DNA from: Bacillota bacterium
GTDB taxonomy: Bacteria > Sysuimicrobiota > Sysuimicrobiia > Sysuimicrobiales > Segetimicrobiaceae
Assembly (NCBI GenBank): GCA_021324975.1
Contig: JAJPIA010000085.1
Span: 122,006 to 186,005 of the forward strand
Direction of reading: 5' to 3'
Length of the DNA: 64,000 nt
This document shows, piece after piece, positions 1,534 to 9,652 of this stretch. The first letter of the stretch is position 1, and each line of letters begins with the position of its first letter. The position numbers and the translations under genes were made by a program. The notes beneath the pieces were generated by a model. That model saw nothing but the letters and a program-made list of their open reading frames with translations, had not been told where the DNA came from and ran no database searches.

Positions 1534-1567
1534 AAAAAGGCTTCTACAGTCGCGTGCTGTAGAAGCC
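1534..1567 (-). terminator. Intrinsic terminator in moxR leader (riboswitch expression platform)
   Basis: On the minus strand a perfect 11-bp stem pairs GGCTTCTACAG (1567-1557) with CTGTAGAAGCC (1549-1539) around a 7-nt loop, followed by TTTTT (1538-1534). It lies between the promoter and the moxR start, so it works as an attenuator. The 5' arm contains GCTTC (1566-1562), which is also the pseudoknot strand of the overlapping aptamer. Aptamer and terminator are therefore mutually exclusive. Confidence 0.88.
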
Positions 1568-1620
1568 ATCGGCCCGCGAGGCATGCGCCTCGGAGGCAGT
1601 TGTGGCGGGCCTCATCGCCC
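1557..1620 (-). ncRNA. Fluoride riboswitch (crcB motif) controlling moxR-DUF58
   Basis: The minus strand starts with GGGCGATGAGGCCCGCC (1620-1604), which matches the 5' half of the Thermotoga-type fluoride aptamer as I remember it. P1 is GGCG/CGCC. The conserved AAC is followed by an extended P2 (GCC 1597-1595 with GGC 1574-1572) that encloses a 6-bp CGAGGC/GCCTCG hairpin with a GCAT loop. Next come CGATG (1571-1567) and GCTTC (1566-1562), which can pair with GAGGC (1613-1609) as the pseudoknot with one G.U pair. A1569 and T1561 match the linchpin A-U pair. The position usually U after P2 is C1571, a deviation. Overlap with the terminator arm predicts fluoride-dependent antitermination. Confidence 0.78.
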
Positions 1621-1649
1621 TCGAGCGCGTTCGACGTCCAGCGTCCCCC

Positions 1650-1679
1650 ATTATAGGAACGCTCGCGACGAAGCGTCAA
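1650..1679 (-). promoter_or_regulatory. Sigma-70-type promoter of the moxR leader
   Basis: TTGACG (1679-1674) and a perfect TATAAT (1655-1650) are separated by 18 bp on the minus strand. Transcription should begin near 1643, about 23 nt before the riboswitch aptamer and 130 nt before the moxR start codon. Confidence 0.82.
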
Positions 1680-2042: not shown

Positions 2043-2987
2043 GTGGCCGCCCACATGCTCTTCAACGTGATCCAGGCGCTTACGGTCCTGCTCCTATCGC
2101 CGCTCGTCAAGGGAGTTTTGGATCGGTGGAAGGAACGCGTCCAATCGCGCCGCGGGCCGACCATCTGGCAACCGTATCGAGATCTTTGGAAACTTTTCCA
2201 GAAGGACGAGGTGGTTTCTGACCAGAGCTCGTGGATCTTTCGGGCGACGCCCTATGTTGTGTTCACGATGCCGCTCTTCGTGACCCTTCTGATCCCCGCG
2301 CTCACAACATACCCGCTGTTCTTCGCCTTTATGGGGGACATGCTGGGGGCCGGATTTTTGCTCGCGTTCGGCGGATTCTTCGCAGCGCTCGCGGCCGTCG
2401 ACACGACGAATCCCTACGGTGCCATGGGGGCGAGCCGGACCCGAATGGTTGGCTTCCTGGCCGAACCGGTGTTCATCATCGTTTTCTTCACCATCTCGTT
2501 CGTCGCCGGCTCGACGATTCCGTACATCGTCCAACAGCAATGGGTTTCGCCGCCGTCCAACTTCTTTGAGCCTTCGCACGTCCTGATTATGCTGGCCTTT
2601 CTCATGCTCTTACTGGCGGAGGCGGGTCGGATTCCGGTGGACAGCCCGTCCGGCCACTTCGAGCTCGCCATGATCGACGAGTCGAAGAACCTGGAGTACT
2701 CGGGGCGCGGCGCCGCGCTCATGAACTGGGGCGGCGCGATGAAGTTCATGGTACTCCAGCTGGTCTTCCTCAATGTCCTCGTCACGCCGTGGGGTCTGGC
2801 GCAGACTCCGTCACTCGCCGCGGTGATGCTGGCGATTCCGCTCGTATTTTCCAAGATCCTCGTGCTGCTCGCCGTGCTCACGGTCATCGAGTCGTCGCTG
2901 GCGAAGCTGAGGCTTTTCCGCATTACGGAGTTTCTGGGCGCGGCGTTCGTCATCGCGACCGTTGCGATGATCACGCGCATCTTCTAG
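2043..2987 (+). CDS. HyfC/HycD/NuoH-like membrane subunit
   Basis: This 314-residue, multi-helix protein is the NuoH/HycD-type subunit that anchors the peripheral arm to the membrane arm in hydrogenase-like complexes. The family loop is visible as AEAGRIPVDSPSGHFELAMIDE (about 192-213), with E193, D200, H205 and E207, and the N-terminal QSRRGPTIWQPYRDLWKLFQKD is also typical. GTG at 2043 follows GGGGAGGTGA by 4-5 nt. It is the first gene after the riboswitch terminator and heads a tight six-gene operon. It has no redox centre of its own; the family links Fe-S cluster reduction to ion movement. Confidence 0.92.
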   Translation: MAAHMLFNVIQALTVLLLSPLVKGVLDRWKERVQSRRGPTIWQPYRDLWKLFQKDEVVSDQSSWIFRATPYVVFTMPLFVTLLIPALTTYPLFFAFMGDMLGAGFLLAFGGFFAALAAVDTTNPYGAMGASRTRMVGFLAEPVFIIVFFTISFVAGSTIPYIVQQQWVSPPSNFFEPSHVLIMLAFLMLLLAEAGRIPVDSPSGHFELAMIDESKNLEYSGRGAALMNWGGAMKFMVLQLVFLNVLVTPWGLAQTPSLAAVMLAIPLVFSKILVLLAVLTVIESSLAKLRLFRITEFLGAAFVIATVAMITRIF

Positions 2988-3001
2988 TCAAGGAGCGTCG
3001 A

Positions 3002-3679
3002 GTGGTGCAATCAGCGTGGGCGGTGGCGCTCAACGATCTGGCCGGCGGGCTCTTTCTGTTGACAGCCGTCGCACTCGTTGTTGTCCGGCAGGTGCAAGCG
3101 TGCTTGGCGGCGTTCGTGTTGGAGTCCGTGCTGCTCGCCGCTTCGGCGTTCATTCTGGCGGCCGCGTCCGGCATCCCCGACCTCGTCGCCGTCGGCTTGA
3201 TCACGATCGCCGTCAAAGCCGTCCTCCTGCCCTGGCTGCTTCGCGGCACGGTCCCCGAAGAGATCTACACTCGTCGGGAACTGTCACAACTCGTCAATGT
3301 CCCTGCATCGCTCCTGATCGCCCTGGCGCTCACCCTGGCCGCGTATCTCATCGCCGTGCCCCTCGCGCCGGCGCAGGATGCCTTTATCAGGGTCAATCTT
3401 CCCATCGGTCTCGCCGGGCTCTTCATCAGCGCTTTGTCGCTGGTCACGCGTCGCGAGGCCGTCCCGCAGCTCGTCGGGTTGTTGGCCATGGAAAATGGCG
3501 CGTTCCTGGCCGGCGTCTCCATCGCGCCTGACCTCCCGTTGATCGCCGAGTTGGCCGCGTCCTTCGACGTGCTGGTGATCGTCCTCGTCATGGGCATCTT
3601 GACCCGTGCCATTCACGAGCATGTCGGCACGACCGACATCGTCGAGCTTGTGGAGCGAAGCGACGAGGAAGAGCTGTGA
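3002..3679 (+). CDS. HyfE-like (NuoK-type) membrane subunit
   Basis: The protein has about 225 residues, nearly all in hydrophobic helices, with a short acidic tail (ELVERSDEEEL). Length, the motif SGIPDLVAVGLITIAVKAVLLPW and the position between HyfC-like and HyfF-like genes fit HyfE, a fusion related to NuoK/MrpC. AAGGAG at 2990-2995 precedes two in-frame GTG codons at 3002 and 3005, and either could be the start. The next gene overlaps its stop by 4 bp. The role is structural and ion-conducting in the membrane arm. Confidence 0.86.
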   Translation: MVQSAWAVALNDLAGGLFLLTAVALVVVRQVQACLAAFVLESVLLAASAFILAAASGIPDLVAVGLITIAVKAVLLPWLLRGTVPEEIYTRRELSQLVNVPASLLIALALTLAAYLIAVPLAPAQDAFIRVNLPIGLAGLFISALSLVTRREAVPQLVGLLAMENGAFLAGVSIAPDLPLIAELAASFDVLVIVLVMGILTRAIHEHVGTTDIVELVERSDEEEL

Positions 3680-5109
3680 CGCTCATCGTGATCCCGCTCT
3701 TGCCCCTGGCGGCGGCGCTCTGGGCACTGTTCCCGCAGCGAGGGCGCGCTGCCGCCGGAGCGACGATGGCGGCGGCCGCCGCGGCCGCGGGGGCCGCATG
3801 GAGCGTAGCGCTACGGAGCGCCGCCGGCGCTCCCACGGTTGCGATATCTGGATGGATCGCCTGCGACGGTTTGGGCGCGCTCGCGCTCGTGCTCGTGGCC
3901 GGAGTGAACCTCAGCGCCGCGATCTTTTCCTACGGTTACGTGTCGGCCCGCCTTGCGCCCGCGGGATCCCGGGCGGAACGCCGATACTACGTCGACTACA
4001 ATCTCTTCGCCGGCTCACTCCTGCTCGTACCGCTGCTGTCGGAACCCGCGCTCGTCTGGATCGCGATCGAGCTGACGACGCTCCTGTCGGTGTTTCTGGT
4101 CGGGTTCACCCGAACGCGCGGCGCCCTCGAGGCGGCGTGGAAGTACGTCGTCCTTACGCTGATGGGCGCGGCGATCGCTCTCCTCGGGTTTCTCCTCCTC
4201 TATTGGGCGTTGCGGGGCGCGGGAGGCGCCGCGTTCACATGGGATGGGCTCACGGCGGCCGCCCCGCGCATGCCGGCGGGTCTGATGCAGGCGGCCTTCC
4301 TCCTCGTTCTCGTTGGCCTGGGCGCCAAGCTCGGACTCGTCCCGTTGCACACGTGGGTCCCGGATGCGTACCGCCATGCACCGGCTCCGGTCTGCGCGCT
4401 TCTGTCCGGGGCGGAAGCCACGGTCGTGCTCTATGCGATTCTGCGTCTCGTGCCGGTAGCGGCCGGGGTGCCCGGCGCGCACGCTGGGGGCTGGCTCATT
4501 GGCTTTGGACTGCTGTCCGTTGGCGTGGCGGTTTTTCTCATCCTCCAGGCGAGCGACTACAAGCACGTGTTTGCCTACTCGACGATCGAGCACATGGGCA
4601 TCATCCTGGTGGCTGCGGGTCTCGGGGGAGCGCTCGCCTCCTACGGCGCAGCCGCACAGGTGCTTGCGCATTCCGTCACCAAGACATTTTGTTTTCTTGC
4701 CGCGGGGGCGGCCGCGGTGGTGACGCCGCGGCGTGAGATCCAAGGGCTCCTGCGAATCTCGCCGGTTGCCGGCGCGGCGCTGCTGCTCGGAGGGCTCGCG
4801 ATTGCGGGGGCCCCTCCGCTCGCGGTCTTCCTCAGCGAGTTCACGATTTTCCGGGCGGGGTTCGCGGAGCGATACCCGATCGCCGCCGCGCTTCTGGCCG
4901 GGTTTGTCGCCGTTGGATTCTTCGCCGTGATGGCGCATGTGAACCGCGCGGTCTTTGGCCGCGCCGGCGTGCGTAAAGTCATCCCCTTGCCGGGGGCGTG
5001 TGTGTTCGCGCTGGCAGCCGCCTCCGTCCCCGTGTTGTGGCTCGGTGTGTACGTCCCCCGCCCTGTTCTCGGGCTTCTCCATCAGGCGGCGCTGTGGATT
5101 GGGAGGTGA
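3676..5109 (+). CDS. HyfF-like antiporter-type membrane subunit
   Basis: The protein has 477 residues and about 14 predicted helices of the proton_antipo_M family (NuoN/M/L, MrpD, HyfF). The charged residues of the ion path are kept: E132 in IAIELTTLLS, K218 in GLGAKLGLVPLHTWVPDAY, K296 in ASDYKHVFAYSTIEHMG and K336 in AHSVTKTF. The GTG start overlaps the previous stop (GTGA). Retention of these residues shows selection for ion translocation even though the redox subunits of this operon are degenerate. Confidence 0.9.
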   Translation: MTLIVIPLLPLAAALWALFPQRGRAAAGATMAAAAAAAGAAWSVALRSAAGAPTVAISGWIACDGLGALALVLVAGVNLSAAIFSYGYVSARLAPAGSRAERRYYVDYNLFAGSLLLVPLLSEPALVWIAIELTTLLSVFLVGFTRTRGALEAAWKYVVLTLMGAAIALLGFLLLYWALRGAGGAAFTWDGLTAAAPRMPAGLMQAAFLLVLVGLGAKLGLVPLHTWVPDAYRHAPAPVCALLSGAEATVVLYAILRLVPVAAGVPGAHAGGWLIGFGLLSVGVAVFLILQASDYKHVFAYSTIEHMGIILVAAGLGGALASYGAAAQVLAHSVTKTFCFLAAGAAAVVTPRREIQGLLRISPVAGAALLLGGLAIAGAPPLAVFLSEFTIFRAGFAERYPIAAALLAGFVAVGFFAVMAHVNRAVFGRAGVRKVIPLPGACVFALAAASVPVLWLGVYVPRPVLGLLHQAALWIGR

Positions 5110-5116
5110 GAAACGC

Positions 5117-6709
5117 GTGAGCCCTGTAGATCGCGCCGGCGCAAGCCGGACGGGTATCGACGCGCTGGTCAGGGCCGAGTGGCCGGACGTCGCTATTTCG
5201 AGCGACGGCCGCGCGGCGACGATCGCCTGCCCGCCGGAAGCGCTGCGCGGGGTCTGCCGTCGCCTCTTTAGCGACCTCGGATATGCCTTTGGAGGGCTTG
5301 TAGTCGAGGATGCCCAGGCGGTCTGGAGCCTGCGCTACTTGTTCTACAGCCCTCTGGCGGAGCTGGCGCACGTGGTGACCGAGTGCGTCAAGCCCTCCGA
5401 AACGGTGCCGAGCATCAGCGTCGAGGTCCACGCAGCGGACTGGCATGAGCGGGAGGCGGAAGACCTCTTCGGGTTGGGTTTTGAGGGGCATCCACGCCTT
5501 GGGGACTTCGTCCTGCACAACGACGTCTGGCCGGAGAGCGTCGCGCCGATGCGCCGGTCCTTCGACCCCGCGGTGCGTGCGCCGTTGCACCGGCCCGATC
5601 CGAATTGGGCGCCCCTCCGCCTCGTGGATGAACCGGGCGCGTTCCTGATGCCCGTCGGACCCATTTACTCCGATATCACCGAGAGCGCGCTCTTCCTCCT
5701 CGAAACGGTCGGCGAAGACGTCATCCGCGTCTTCCCTCGTCTATTTTACAAATACCGCGCCGTGGAGAAGAACGCCGAAGGACGCAGCGTCGACGACGGG
5801 CTGTTGGTGGCGGAACGATTCGCCGCCACGTCGGCGTTCGCGCACTCGCTCGCCTTCTGCCACGCGGTGGAACAGATCGGCGGGATCGCCGTGCCGCCTC
5901 GCGGGCGCACGCTCCGCATCTTCCTCGCCGAACTCGAGCGGCTGCGGCACCACGTCGCGGCCATCGAAGGGATCTGCGCGTCGACCGCCCTCGCGGTGGC
6001 CGCAAGTCAGGCGGCGATCCTCGAGGAACAACTCTTGCGGCTATCGGGCGCGCTGACGGGCCACCGGTACCTGTTCGGGCTCAACGTGCCTGGGGGACTC
6101 GCACGGGACCTCGAGACGGCGGCGTGCCGGGAAACGGCGGCGTCGGTCGGAACCGTGCTCCACGGATTGTCGCGGCTGCGCGAGATGCTCCGGTTTTCAT
6201 CGAGCTTTCTCGACCGTATCGAAGGCGTCGGCGCGATCGCTGAGCAGGCGGCATTGACGCACGGACTGGTGGGCCCGATTGCCCGCGCGTCGAACGTGGC
6301 GCGCGACCTCCGCCGCGCACAGCCCTACGGAGGCTACGAACAATTCGAGTTTCAGGTGCCGCGGGAGACGACCGGAGACGGCTATGCGCGCCTGCTGGTC
6401 CTCTTCGCGGAGGCGGAGCAATCGACCGGTTTGCTGCGACAGTCGGCGGACCGGTTGTCCGAAGGCCCGGTTCACGTACCGGCGCCGATTCGCGCGGGCG
6501 CCGCCTTCGGATGGTGCGAGGCTCCACTCGGCGCCGCCTTTCACTGGGTGCGGATCGGCGCGGACGGTCGGATCGAGCGATTTCGACCGATCACACCGTC
6601 GTTTGTGAACTGGCACGGCTTTCATCTTGCCGCCGAGAACTTCGCCTTCCAGGATTTCCCGATCATCCTGGCCACCTTCGGCCTCTCGGTCGCGGAGTGC
6701 GATCGCTGA
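5117..6709 (+). CDS. HyfG/HycE-like large subunit lacking NiFe ligands (Ehr-type)
   Basis: The protein has 530 residues. Residues 1-165 form a NuoC-like domain (VHAADWHEREAEDLFGLGFEGHPRL) and 175-530 the hydrogenase large-subunit/NuoD-like domain. The N-terminal motif usually RxCGxCxFAHS reads RFAATSAFAHS, so the two cysteines are A236 and S239. The C-terminal CxxC reads S524-V-A-E527 before CDR. A NiFe site therefore cannot form, as known for Ehr (energy-converting-hydrogenase-related) complexes and NuoD. GTG at 5117 follows GGGAGGTGAG, and longer in-frame starts would lie inside the previous gene. It should pair with the small subunit encoded next. Confidence 0.88.
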   Translation: MSPVDRAGASRTGIDALVRAEWPDVAISSDGRAATIACPPEALRGVCRRLFSDLGYAFGGLVVEDAQAVWSLRYLFYSPLAELAHVVTECVKPSETVPSISVEVHAADWHEREAEDLFGLGFEGHPRLGDFVLHNDVWPESVAPMRRSFDPAVRAPLHRPDPNWAPLRLVDEPGAFLMPVGPIYSDITESALFLLETVGEDVIRVFPRLFYKYRAVEKNAEGRSVDDGLLVAERFAATSAFAHSLAFCHAVEQIGGIAVPPRGRTLRIFLAELERLRHHVAAIEGICASTALAVAASQAAILEEQLLRLSGALTGHRYLFGLNVPGGLARDLETAACRETAASVGTVLHGLSRLREMLRFSSSFLDRIEGVGAIAEQAALTHGLVGPIARASNVARDLRRAQPYGGYEQFEFQVPRETTGDGYARLLVLFAEAEQSTGLLRQSADRLSEGPVHVPAPIRAGAAFGWCEAPLGAAFHWVRIGADGRIERFRPITPSFVNWHGFHLAAENFAFQDFPIILATFGLSVAECDR

Positions 6710-6746
6710 TGCGGCGGCGGCGGCGGTCCCCAAGGAGATATGCGCC

Positions 6747-7508
6747 ATGAGCAACTGGGTGATACGCGGTCTCAGGACGCCGGTTCCCACGACGCGCTTT
6801 CCGGCCGCGCCGGAACGGGCACGGGGGGCGTCTCCAGGTATGCCCCGCGCCACCGTGCTTCCCGAGGAGGTCGCGGCCGATCTCGCGCGCCGCTGCCCCA
6901 CGGGGGCACTCGCGGCGCACGGCGAACGCGTTGTGGTCGATCCGGCACGCTGTGTGCATTCGTTTCGGTGCGTCCGCGGCGTCGCGTCGCCGATGGATTG
7001 GAACCATGGCAACGAATGGGCCGCGCCGCGCGGCACGGACGCACGACCATTCGGCCCGCTCGGGGCGGCCTTCCGTGGGTCGGCGCATATCCTCGTCGTC
7101 GACGCGGGCGACTGCGGCGCGTGCCTCGCCGAGGTGAAGCACCTCAACAACCCCTACTACAACATGCACCGCCTGGGGTTCTTCGTCACACCGACCCCGC
7201 GCAACGCGGATATCCTGCTGGTCGTTGGATCAGGCACCGTGAACATGCGGTGGGCGCTCCGCAAGGCCTACGAGGCGATGCCCGCACCGAAGCGGGTGGT
7301 GGCCGTGGGCACCTGTGCCCTGACCGGGAGCGTGTTTGCGCCGAGCTTCGCGTCGGATGCCGGGATCCACGACCTTCCTGTCGATGTGGCGGTACCGGGA
7401 TCGCCACCGCCCCCCCTCGCGATCCTCCACGGCCTGCTCCTCGTCACCGGACGCGCCCCGGCGGCCCGAAGCGGGTCGGGCCTCGTGGATACAGCTAAGG
7501 CAGACTGA
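6747..7508 (+). CDS. HyfI/HycG/NuoB-like small subunit with degenerate ferredoxin domain
   Basis: The protein has 253 residues. An N-terminal ferredoxin-like part keeps C50 (RCPTGAL), C69 and C75, but the middle cysteine of CxxCxxC is S72 (CVHSFRC). The NuoB-like part has the first two ligands in DCGACLAEV (C123, C126) and the third in VGTCALTG (C190). The fourth, normally VPGCPP, is S219 in VPGSPPPP; the codon is TCG at 7399-7401. The proximal 4Fe-4S cluster is thus short of one cysteine, as is the ferredoxin site. ATG 6747 has AAGGAGAT 7 nt upstream. Serine ligation or altered clusters remain possible. Confidence 0.88.
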   Translation: MSNWVIRGLRTPVPTTRFPAAPERARGASPGMPRATVLPEEVAADLARRCPTGALAAHGERVVVDPARCVHSFRCVRGVASPMDWNHGNEWAAPRGTDARPFGPLGAAFRGSAHILVVDAGDCGACLAEVKHLNNPYYNMHRLGFFVTPTPRNADILLVVGSGTVNMRWALRKAYEAMPAPKRVVAVGTCALTGSVFAPSFASDAGIHDLPVDVAVPGSPPPPLAILHGLLLVTGRAPAARSGSGLVDTAKAD

Positions 7509-9652
7509 TGATGGCGCTCAATGTGCTGGCCGCATCGTTCCTGACCGCGTGCGCAGCCGGGGTGATTGCCAGCGCCACCCTCCCCGATCGGCGTGTTCCG
7601 GCGGTCCTGGCCTGCACCGGGTCCGCGATGGCAATGATGCTCATGGCGATCGGGCTCACGGTGCTCGCGACCGGCCATCTCTGGTCCGCCACGCTGTGGA
7701 CCGTAGCCCCGTTTGGCGCACTGACGCTGGAAGTGGACCGGCTGGCGGCCGTGTTTATCACGGCTATGGGACTGGTATGCCTGCCCGTGTCGCTTTTCTC
7801 CGCCGGTTATTTGCTCCGCTATCTCGGCCGGTACAGCCTCCGATCGTTCGGCATCCTCTACCACGGCCTGCTCGCGGCGATCGCGCTCACGCTCGCCACC
7901 TCCGACGTCCTTGCGTTCCTGCTCGCCTGGGAGGCGATGGCGATCCTGAGCTACTTCCTCGTGAACTATGAACACGAGCAACGCGAGCACACGCACGCAG
8001 GGTACTTAATGCTCGTGATGGGCGAGGCCGGAACGGTCGCAGTGATGGTCGCATTCCTCCTGCTCATCAATGCGGCCGGCGGCCTCCCGTTCGCTGCGCT
8101 GCGACACGCGGCCGCCACAGCGGGCGTTCAGACGCGCTGGGCCGTCTTTCTGTTGTCGTTCTTCGGGTTCGGCGTGAAGGCCGGGCTGTTACCGGGCAGT
8201 TCCTGGCTTCCGCGCGCCCATCCGGCGGCGCCGGCCAACGTGTCGGCCGTGCTGTCCGGCGTGATTCTGAACCTCGGGCTCTACGGCATCATCCGCGTGA
8301 ACCTGGATCTCCTGCCGGCGCACTTGGTCGGCCCCGGCATAGTGGTGTTGGTCGTCGGCAGCCTGTCGGCCCTCGTCGGCATCCTCTACGCAACGACCCA
8401 GAACGACCTCAAGGCGATGCTGGCGCACAGCTCCATCGAAAATATCGGGATTGTGACCGCGGCGTTGGGCGCCGGGCTGGTCTTCGGGGCTTCCGGGGAA
8501 GCGACCCTCGCGAGCATGGCCTACGTCGCCGCGCTGTATCACATGGTGAATCACTCGGCCTATAAAGGACTCTTGTTTCTCGGTGCAGGCGCGGTCGACG
8601 GGGGCGCGGGGGAGCGTCACATGGATCGACTCGGCGGTCTCATCCGACGCATGCCTTGGACAGCCATGTTCTTCCTGGTCGGCGCGCTCGCCATCGCCGC
8701 GATGCCGCCGTTCAACGGGTTTGCCAGCGAATGGCTCACGCTGCAGACCCTGCTGCGCAGCGTCGAGCTCCACGCGACGGCGGTCAAGATCGTCTTCGCA
8801 CTGTGCGGCGCGGCCCTCGCCTTGACGGCGTCGCTCGCGGCGACCTGCTTTGTGAAGACCTTTGCGATGAGCTTCCTGGGGTTGCCCCGTTCAGGCGCCG
8901 CCGGGTCCGCGCACGAAGCGGCCCCTACCGCGCTGGCGGCCATGGGGATCCTGGCGGCGGTGTGCCTCGCGCTCGGCATCCTGCCGACTTACACGATCCC
9001 CGCGCTGAGCGGCGCCGTGGCGCCGCTGACCCACGCGAGCGCCGCGGACGCCCTCGTTCCGTCGTTCTTCGCGCCCGCAACGCCGGGGCACGCCCTGCCC
9101 GCGTCATTCGTAGCCGACTTTCGCACGCTTGGAGCGCAGGTCGGCCGGCACCTGCTGCCGGGCCGCGGGCTCATCGTATTGCTTCGCGGCGGGACCGATA
9201 ACCCGGTCGTCTTCGCGATGTCGACCAGCTACGCGTTCCCAGTGCTTCTGGGGCTGATCGGACTTGTCTACCTGGCCGTCCACGTTGGGACCCGAGCCCG
9301 CACGCTCGCGCGCCGACCGCGATGGGACGGCGGCGTGCCGCGGCTCGACCCGGAAATGACGTATACGGCCACCGGATTCTCCAACCCCGTCCGGGTCGTG
9401 TTCAATGCCGTCTTCCATCCATCCATGGCGGATGACACTACGGAGGTGGTGGCGGAGCACTTTCGGACGGCCGTTCGACGCGCGCGCGTCGAGACATACG
9501 TGGCCGACCGGTTTGTCGCTGATCCCCTCGCCGGTTGGTCACACGGCCTCGCCCGCGCGCTCGCGGCGATGCACCGCGGCGGCCTGAACACGTACGCGGC
9601 GTACGTGCTCCTCACGCTGCTGTTGGTCCTGGTGGCCGCGCGGTTGCTGTAG
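7508..9652 (+). CDS. HyfB-like antiporter-type membrane subunit
   Basis: The protein has 714 residues, about 14 antiporter helices plus a long C-terminal part with a last helix, as in HyfB/HycC/NuoL. Ion-path residues are present: E142 in AWEAMAILSYF, K224 in FGVKAGLLPGSSWLP, K302 in TQNDLKAMLAHSS and K353 in HSAYKGLLF. ATG at 7508 overlaps the previous stop by 1 bp (TGATG), and it is the last gene of the operon. Together with the HyfF-like subunit the complex has two antiporter-type subunits. The following 166 bp (9653-9818) lie between convergent genes and show no clear terminator. Confidence 0.9.
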   Translation: MMALNVLAASFLTACAAGVIASATLPDRRVPAVLACTGSAMAMMLMAIGLTVLATGHLWSATLWTVAPFGALTLEVDRLAAVFITAMGLVCLPVSLFSAGYLLRYLGRYSLRSFGILYHGLLAAIALTLATSDVLAFLLAWEAMAILSYFLVNYEHEQREHTHAGYLMLVMGEAGTVAVMVAFLLLINAAGGLPFAALRHAAATAGVQTRWAVFLLSFFGFGVKAGLLPGSSWLPRAHPAAPANVSAVLSGVILNLGLYGIIRVNLDLLPAHLVGPGIVVLVVGSLSALVGILYATTQNDLKAMLAHSSIENIGIVTAALGAGLVFGASGEATLASMAYVAALYHMVNHSAYKGLLFLGAGAVDGGAGERHMDRLGGLIRRMPWTAMFFLVGALAIAAMPPFNGFASEWLTLQTLLRSVELHATAVKIVFALCGAALALTASLAATCFVKTFAMSFLGLPRSGAAGSAHEAAPTALAAMGILAAVCLALGILPTYTIPALSGAVAPLTHASAADALVPSFFAPATPGHALPASFVADFRTLGAQVGRHLLPGRGLIVLLRGGTDNPVVFAMSTSYAFPVLLGLIGLVYLAVHVGTRARTLARRPRWDGGVPRLDPEMTYTATGFSNPVRVVFNAVFHPSMADDTTEVVAEHFRTAVRRARVETYVADRFVADPLAGWSHGLARALAAMHRGGLNTYAAYVLLTLLLVLVAARLL

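Follow-up and report, generated by a model that had tools for sequence, protein, structure and literature searches.

A fluoride riboswitch element, predicted to act as a transcriptional ON switch, precedes a moxR-DUF58-DUF4129 operon in Sysuimicrobiota

Operons encoding a MoxR-family AAA+ ATPase together with a DUF58 and a DUF4129 protein are common, and we know of no client for any of them. Control by a riboswitch is strong evidence for the circumstances that call for a gene, and would thus give such an operon a defined inducer and a defined stress. The locus described here raises the question of whether a fluoride riboswitch, a well-known RNA class, controls the moxR operon that starts on the minus strand near one end of the window (the whole stretch of 64,000 nucleotides that was analysed), and what the encoded proteins may do under fluoride. 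The window lies on contig C10 of a 4.4-Mb genome, referred to as G000. A sequence-only reading of the window had proposed a second fluoride riboswitch in front of a MoxR-DUF58 pair, and had named a covariance-model search and a comparison of moxR leaders in related genomes as checks.

The covariance model of the fluoride (crcB) aptamer, RF01734, matched the minus strand at positions 1628-1553 over model positions 1-64 with 32.7 bits (E = 2e-7 in a 401-base search; E = 5.1e-7 genome-wide in the 4.4-Mb G000). The score is 1.3 bits below the Rfam gathering threshold of 34 bits, and the aptamer is therefore missed by a standard Rfam scan. The alignment shows a C in place of the model U preceding GAUG, and an enlarged P3; this is the helix that had been described as an extended P2, so that the enlargement stands and the helix takes another name in the published numbering. 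The 5′ pseudoknot strand GAGGCC (1608-1613, minus strand) forms 6/6 pairs, one of them G-U, with the 3′ strand GGCUUC (1567-1562), one pair more than the five bp GAGGC/GCTTC recognized earlier, all of which are present. The 3′ strand doubles as the base of the 5′ arm of an 11-bp intrinsic terminator hairpin (1539-1567) followed by UUUUU to 1534, which bears out the sharing of GCTTC between the pseudoknot and a perfect 11-bp terminator. The sigma-70-type promoter TTGACG-18-TATAAT, likewise anticipated, was found at 1650-1679 of the minus strand with 11/12 consensus matches, and the distance from the aptamer end to moxR is 39 nt. Shuffled versions of the leader region contained on average 0.1 promoters and 0.4 terminators. 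Minimum-energy folding of the leader (z of -2 against shuffles) was set aside as evidence, because the pseudoknot is invisible to the method and the gain over shuffles is modest. As the 5′ arm of the terminator includes the 3′ pseudoknot strand, the layout is that expected of a transcriptional ON switch. Judged by its sequence, the element at 1628-1553 belongs among the fluoride riboswitches, as one of the transcriptional type; this assignment rests on the model match, the pseudoknot and the overlap with the terminator, with the reservation that the A10-U38 contact is absent.

The strand exchange was examined in 38 aptamers of the phylum with their flanking sequences. The pseudoknot was paired at 6/6 positions in 38/38 aptamers, with changes on both sides: GC occurs 25 times and AT 13 times at pair 2, AT, GC or GU at pair 3, and TA 23 times, CG 12 times and TG three times at pair 6. 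In 35 of the 38, all 10 nt examined of the terminator arm were paired. Pair 6 of the pseudoknot and the terminator base change together, being C-G and G-C in the window and in the related genome G026, and U-A and A-U in a second relative, G028; accordingly, the terminator pair adjoining the U run is G-C in the window and A-U in G028. These counts illustrate the covariation and do not measure its significance, because they are uncorrected for relatedness and the best-scoring segment was chosen as the terminator partner. In the published mechanism of the class, six nucleotides likewise pass from the pseudoknot to the base of the terminator, and covariation of the shared nucleotides has been published for it as well (PMC11077080; PMC13273304). 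The moxR element shares the aptamer core, the 6-bp pseudoknot and the use of the 3′ strand as terminator base with the Bacillus cereus crcB-type transcriptional switch, and differs from it in controlling moxR-DUF58-DUF4129, in carrying C38 and a larger P3, and in having no wobble at pseudoknot position 1. Two plus-strand aptamers, one before an MFS transporter gene in G000 (L009 12215-12320; terminator pairing 9/10) and one at C12:35428 in G028 (L044 11329-11440; 8/10), have poor U runs, and in view of this and their imperfect terminator pairing they may switch by another route.

The gene behind the element, moxR, occupies 536-1513 of the minus strand, starts with GTG at 1513 preceded by GGGAGG, and encodes a 325-aa MoxR-family AAA+ ATPase. 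The product contains the AAA_3 and AAA_lid_2 domains (PF07726, 207.5 bits; PF17863, 74.9 bits), the Walker A motif GIGKT, the Walker B motif LLVDE and the motif ATQN. The DUF58 gene overlaps moxR by 4 bases and runs past the window end; its 5′ part lies at 1-539 of the minus strand (PF01882, 42.8 bits against a cut-off of 23.4), and the whole gene, encoding 410 aa, is at L009 15313-16545. The third gene, for a DUF4129-type membrane protein (L009 14157-15305), lies wholly outside the window. The G000 protein generated no Pfam match of its own and was identified via its relatives, as related third proteins at four other loci matched PF13559 (DUF4129) in 4/4 cases tested. An in-frame TAG lies just before the DUF4129 region of the G000 gene (L009 13900-15305), at a site that encodes glutamate in the third genes of G026 and G028; it may equally reflect an assembly error, a recent truncation or a real shortening.

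Conservation of the arrangement was investigated in 43 genomes of the phylum, 21 of which carry a fluoride aptamer. A MoxR of the close type (E below 1e-200) occurs in 3/43 genomes, namely G000, G026 and G028, metagenome-assembled genomes of three species of one family (f1), and in each of them an aptamer lies some 30-40 nt upstream of moxR. Joining MoxR hits to aptamer hits over the 43 genomes returned only these three cases, and a contig scan matched only the G026 and G028 loci (Centralia_MAG_47, Centralia_MAG_45). MoxR is 93% identical to that of G000 in G026 and 78% in G028, where DUF58 and the third protein are 72% and 51% identical. The two moxR leaders have the same promoter hexamers, 18-nt spacer, aptamer, terminator and spacing, and a GGAGG ribosome-binding site, so that the motif is kept in both relatives. 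The surroundings vary. In G026, a MutS pair with its own aptamer follows downstream, and upstream of moxR lie genes with no relation to the complex-I/hydrogenase-4-like complex that is divergently encoded in the window. G028 has that complex and the moxR operon on a single contig, separated by about 5 kb and not divergent, each behind its own aptamer. Since the neighbourhoods differ and the switch stays, the link is between switch and operon, and is no accident of the divergent layout.

Families f2, f4 and f5 also have moxR-DUF58-third gene operons with the gene order of the G000 operon; they are more distant in sequence (MoxR E about 1e-130, DUF58 E about 1e-110, third proteins approximately 27-30% identical, with DUF4129 at the C-terminus), and several lie directly behind an aroA-like frame, as read from the translation. 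A permissive Rfam scan of 15 such loci, three of which (L062, L068 and L071) lack a full moxR leader, found no aptamer before moxR, and the 13 homologous leaders inspected contain no comparable terminator. One terminator flag, in L066, was rejected as a GC-rich fold inside an apparent upstream coding sequence with no real U run. The switch was therefore either gained in f1 or lost elsewhere. Homologous leaders lacking the motif while keeping the terminator, which the sequence-only reading had named as evidence against a riboswitch, did not occur; as the leaders of other families lack both, that comparison is not applicable here.

Four confident fluoride aptamers were detected genome-wide in G000, and the next-best match, at 14.9 bits, is noise. 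All four lie within 6 kb (C10:117906-123863) as two divergent pairs, and each precedes a gene or operon: a MutS-type pair (minus strand), the MFS transporter (plus), moxR-DUF58-membrane protein (minus) and the hydrogenase-4/complex-I-like operon (plus). The last is the divergent partner of the moxR switch, with an aptamer at 1793-1858 of the plus strand (35.4 bits). In G028, the leader of the MutS genes (L044 10681-11240) apparently still contains the aptamer, interrupted in its P3 region by an insert considerably longer than 100 nt, as seen from the sequence and with no model score.

The base at position 38 sets some of these aptamers apart. U38 is present in 33 of the 38 phylum aptamers, and C38 in five, namely all three moxR leaders and the MutS-pair leaders of G000 and G026. 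The A10-U38 contact is a common feature of the class and is not known as defining it. In the fluoride-bound aptamer, A10 and U38 form a reversed Watson-Crick pair and A40 pairs with U48 (PMC10687018). The moxR aptamers keep A10, with C38 in all three, so that the A10-U38 contact is absent, whereas A40 and U48 of the linchpin pair are both present; because U38 pairs with A10 in the bound state, fluoride affinity could be altered. The conservation of C38 across three species in moxR and MutS-pair leaders might even indicate a variant aptamer with altered affinity or another ligand. We regard such a variant as very unlikely, as the moxR aptamers retain A10, U11, A40, U41 and U48 together with the complete pseudoknot, and C38 and U38 switches are neighbours within the same island. 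It is scarcely credible that the moxR aptamer has decayed and now serves only as a constitutive attenuator or terminator: the score below threshold and the C38 change would fit, but promoter, core, pseudoknot and terminator are kept, with compensating changes, despite a 22% difference in MoxR. The C38 subgroup offers a natural test case for the A10-U38 contact. In published tests of variants, a wobble at the first pseudoknot position proved important for switching (PMC11077080); the moxR-aptamer pseudoknot has none at this position, which may bear on the operating temperature of the switch.

Taken together, a fluoride-responsive, transcription-terminating ON riboswitch very probably controls moxR-DUF58-DUF4129. 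Aptamer match, strand overlap, covariation and promoter are direct observations, as is the conservation ahead of moxR in all three species; from these we infer that fluoride is the ligand, that it turns the switch ON, and what the proteins do. Without fluoride, nascent GGCUUC would quit the pseudoknot and nucleate the 11-bp terminator, and transcription would halt upstream of moxR. With fluoride and magnesium bound, the aptamer would be locked and GGCUUC held in the pseudoknot, the terminator would be blocked, and the operon would be transcribed. The MoxR ring, DUF58 and their membrane partner might then act as a chaperone module that uses ATP to remodel or activate complexes of the envelope or membrane under fluoride or HF stress. 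This is the most likely role of the proteins, held tentatively and at somewhat below an even chance.

The sequence-only reading had suggested a more specific client, the divergently encoded complex. The operon in question, which the plus-strand fluoride switch precedes, lies at 2043-9652 of the window; for its large subunit, Complex1_49kDa (141 bits) is a much better match than NiFe hydrogenase (29 bits), and paired CxxC motifs are absent from it, so that the complex is probably no hydrogenase. MoxR proteins are chaperone-like ATPases, and E. coli RavA (MoxR) with ViaA binds Nuo subunits of complex I and has been proposed to aid Nuo maturation (PMC3893208), which makes the client idea reasonable: MoxR-DUF58 would be a dedicated maturation or repair chaperone of the divergent complex, and the two switches would co-induce client and chaperone, in keeping with the divergent pair in the window and the presence of both operons, each behind its own aptamer, about 5 kb apart in G028. 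Orthologs of the complex were found only in G000 and G028 (E of 0 in both), however; the best hit in G026 (approximately 94% complete assembly) is 3.8e-43, so the operon, with its switch, appears to be kept there without the complex. The moxR-DUF58 operons of other families also occur without an ortholog of the complex, and a divergent layout of moxR operon and complex is seen in neither G026 nor G028. The G000 pair resembles RavA-ViaA, which is linked to respiratory complex I, in combining a MoxR-family ATPase with a partner protein, but its MoxR scores 18.8 bits against the RavA model (cut-off 681) and its partner is DUF58, not ViaA. We know of no link between RavA-ViaA and fluoride. A client role of the divergent complex is therefore decidedly unlikely, and a general membrane role under fluoride stress is favoured.

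Two of the four island switches precede gene types already placed in the fluoride regulon, mutS and formate hydrogenlyase; published members comprise mutS, K+/Cl- transport and formate hydrogenlyase genes (PMC2864571), and the parts consulted of a review add Na+/H+ antiporters, pyrophosphatase and enolase (PMC11139923). MoxR is unmentioned in the main text of the former and was not met in those parts of the latter, and a literature search for MoxR with the fluoride riboswitch returned an unrelated co-mention only, in line with the earlier remark that MoxR is unfamiliar as a regulon member; a listing in the tables of Baker et al. 2012 is possible. What is new is the operon under the switch, and perhaps the C38 subgroup, as the RNA itself belongs to a known family. 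An AAA+ chaperone-type module would thereby take its place in the fluoride regulon beside the known exporters, antiporters, mutS and formate hydrogenlyase.

Despite its four fluoride switches, no CrcB/Fluc gene was detected in the whole G000 genome (PF02537), and CrcB/Fluc occurs in only 3/43 genomes of the phylum. G000 has one CLC-type gene (C76:39762-40790), a candidate only as a fluoride-type transporter. That the operon is a dedicated fluoride-tolerance module, an ATP-driven membrane-complex remodeller turned on by fluoride via an aptamer of a distinct C38 subgroup in a genome without detectable CrcB/Fluc, seems rather unlikely. In several other families of the phylum, fluoride switches are immediately followed by genes for small proteins (L037 319-585, L057 8870-9238, L056 9463-9915 and L047 7814-8332, among others); the one tested, from L037, generated no Pfam match, and these proteins possibly form an undescribed family of the fluoride regulon.
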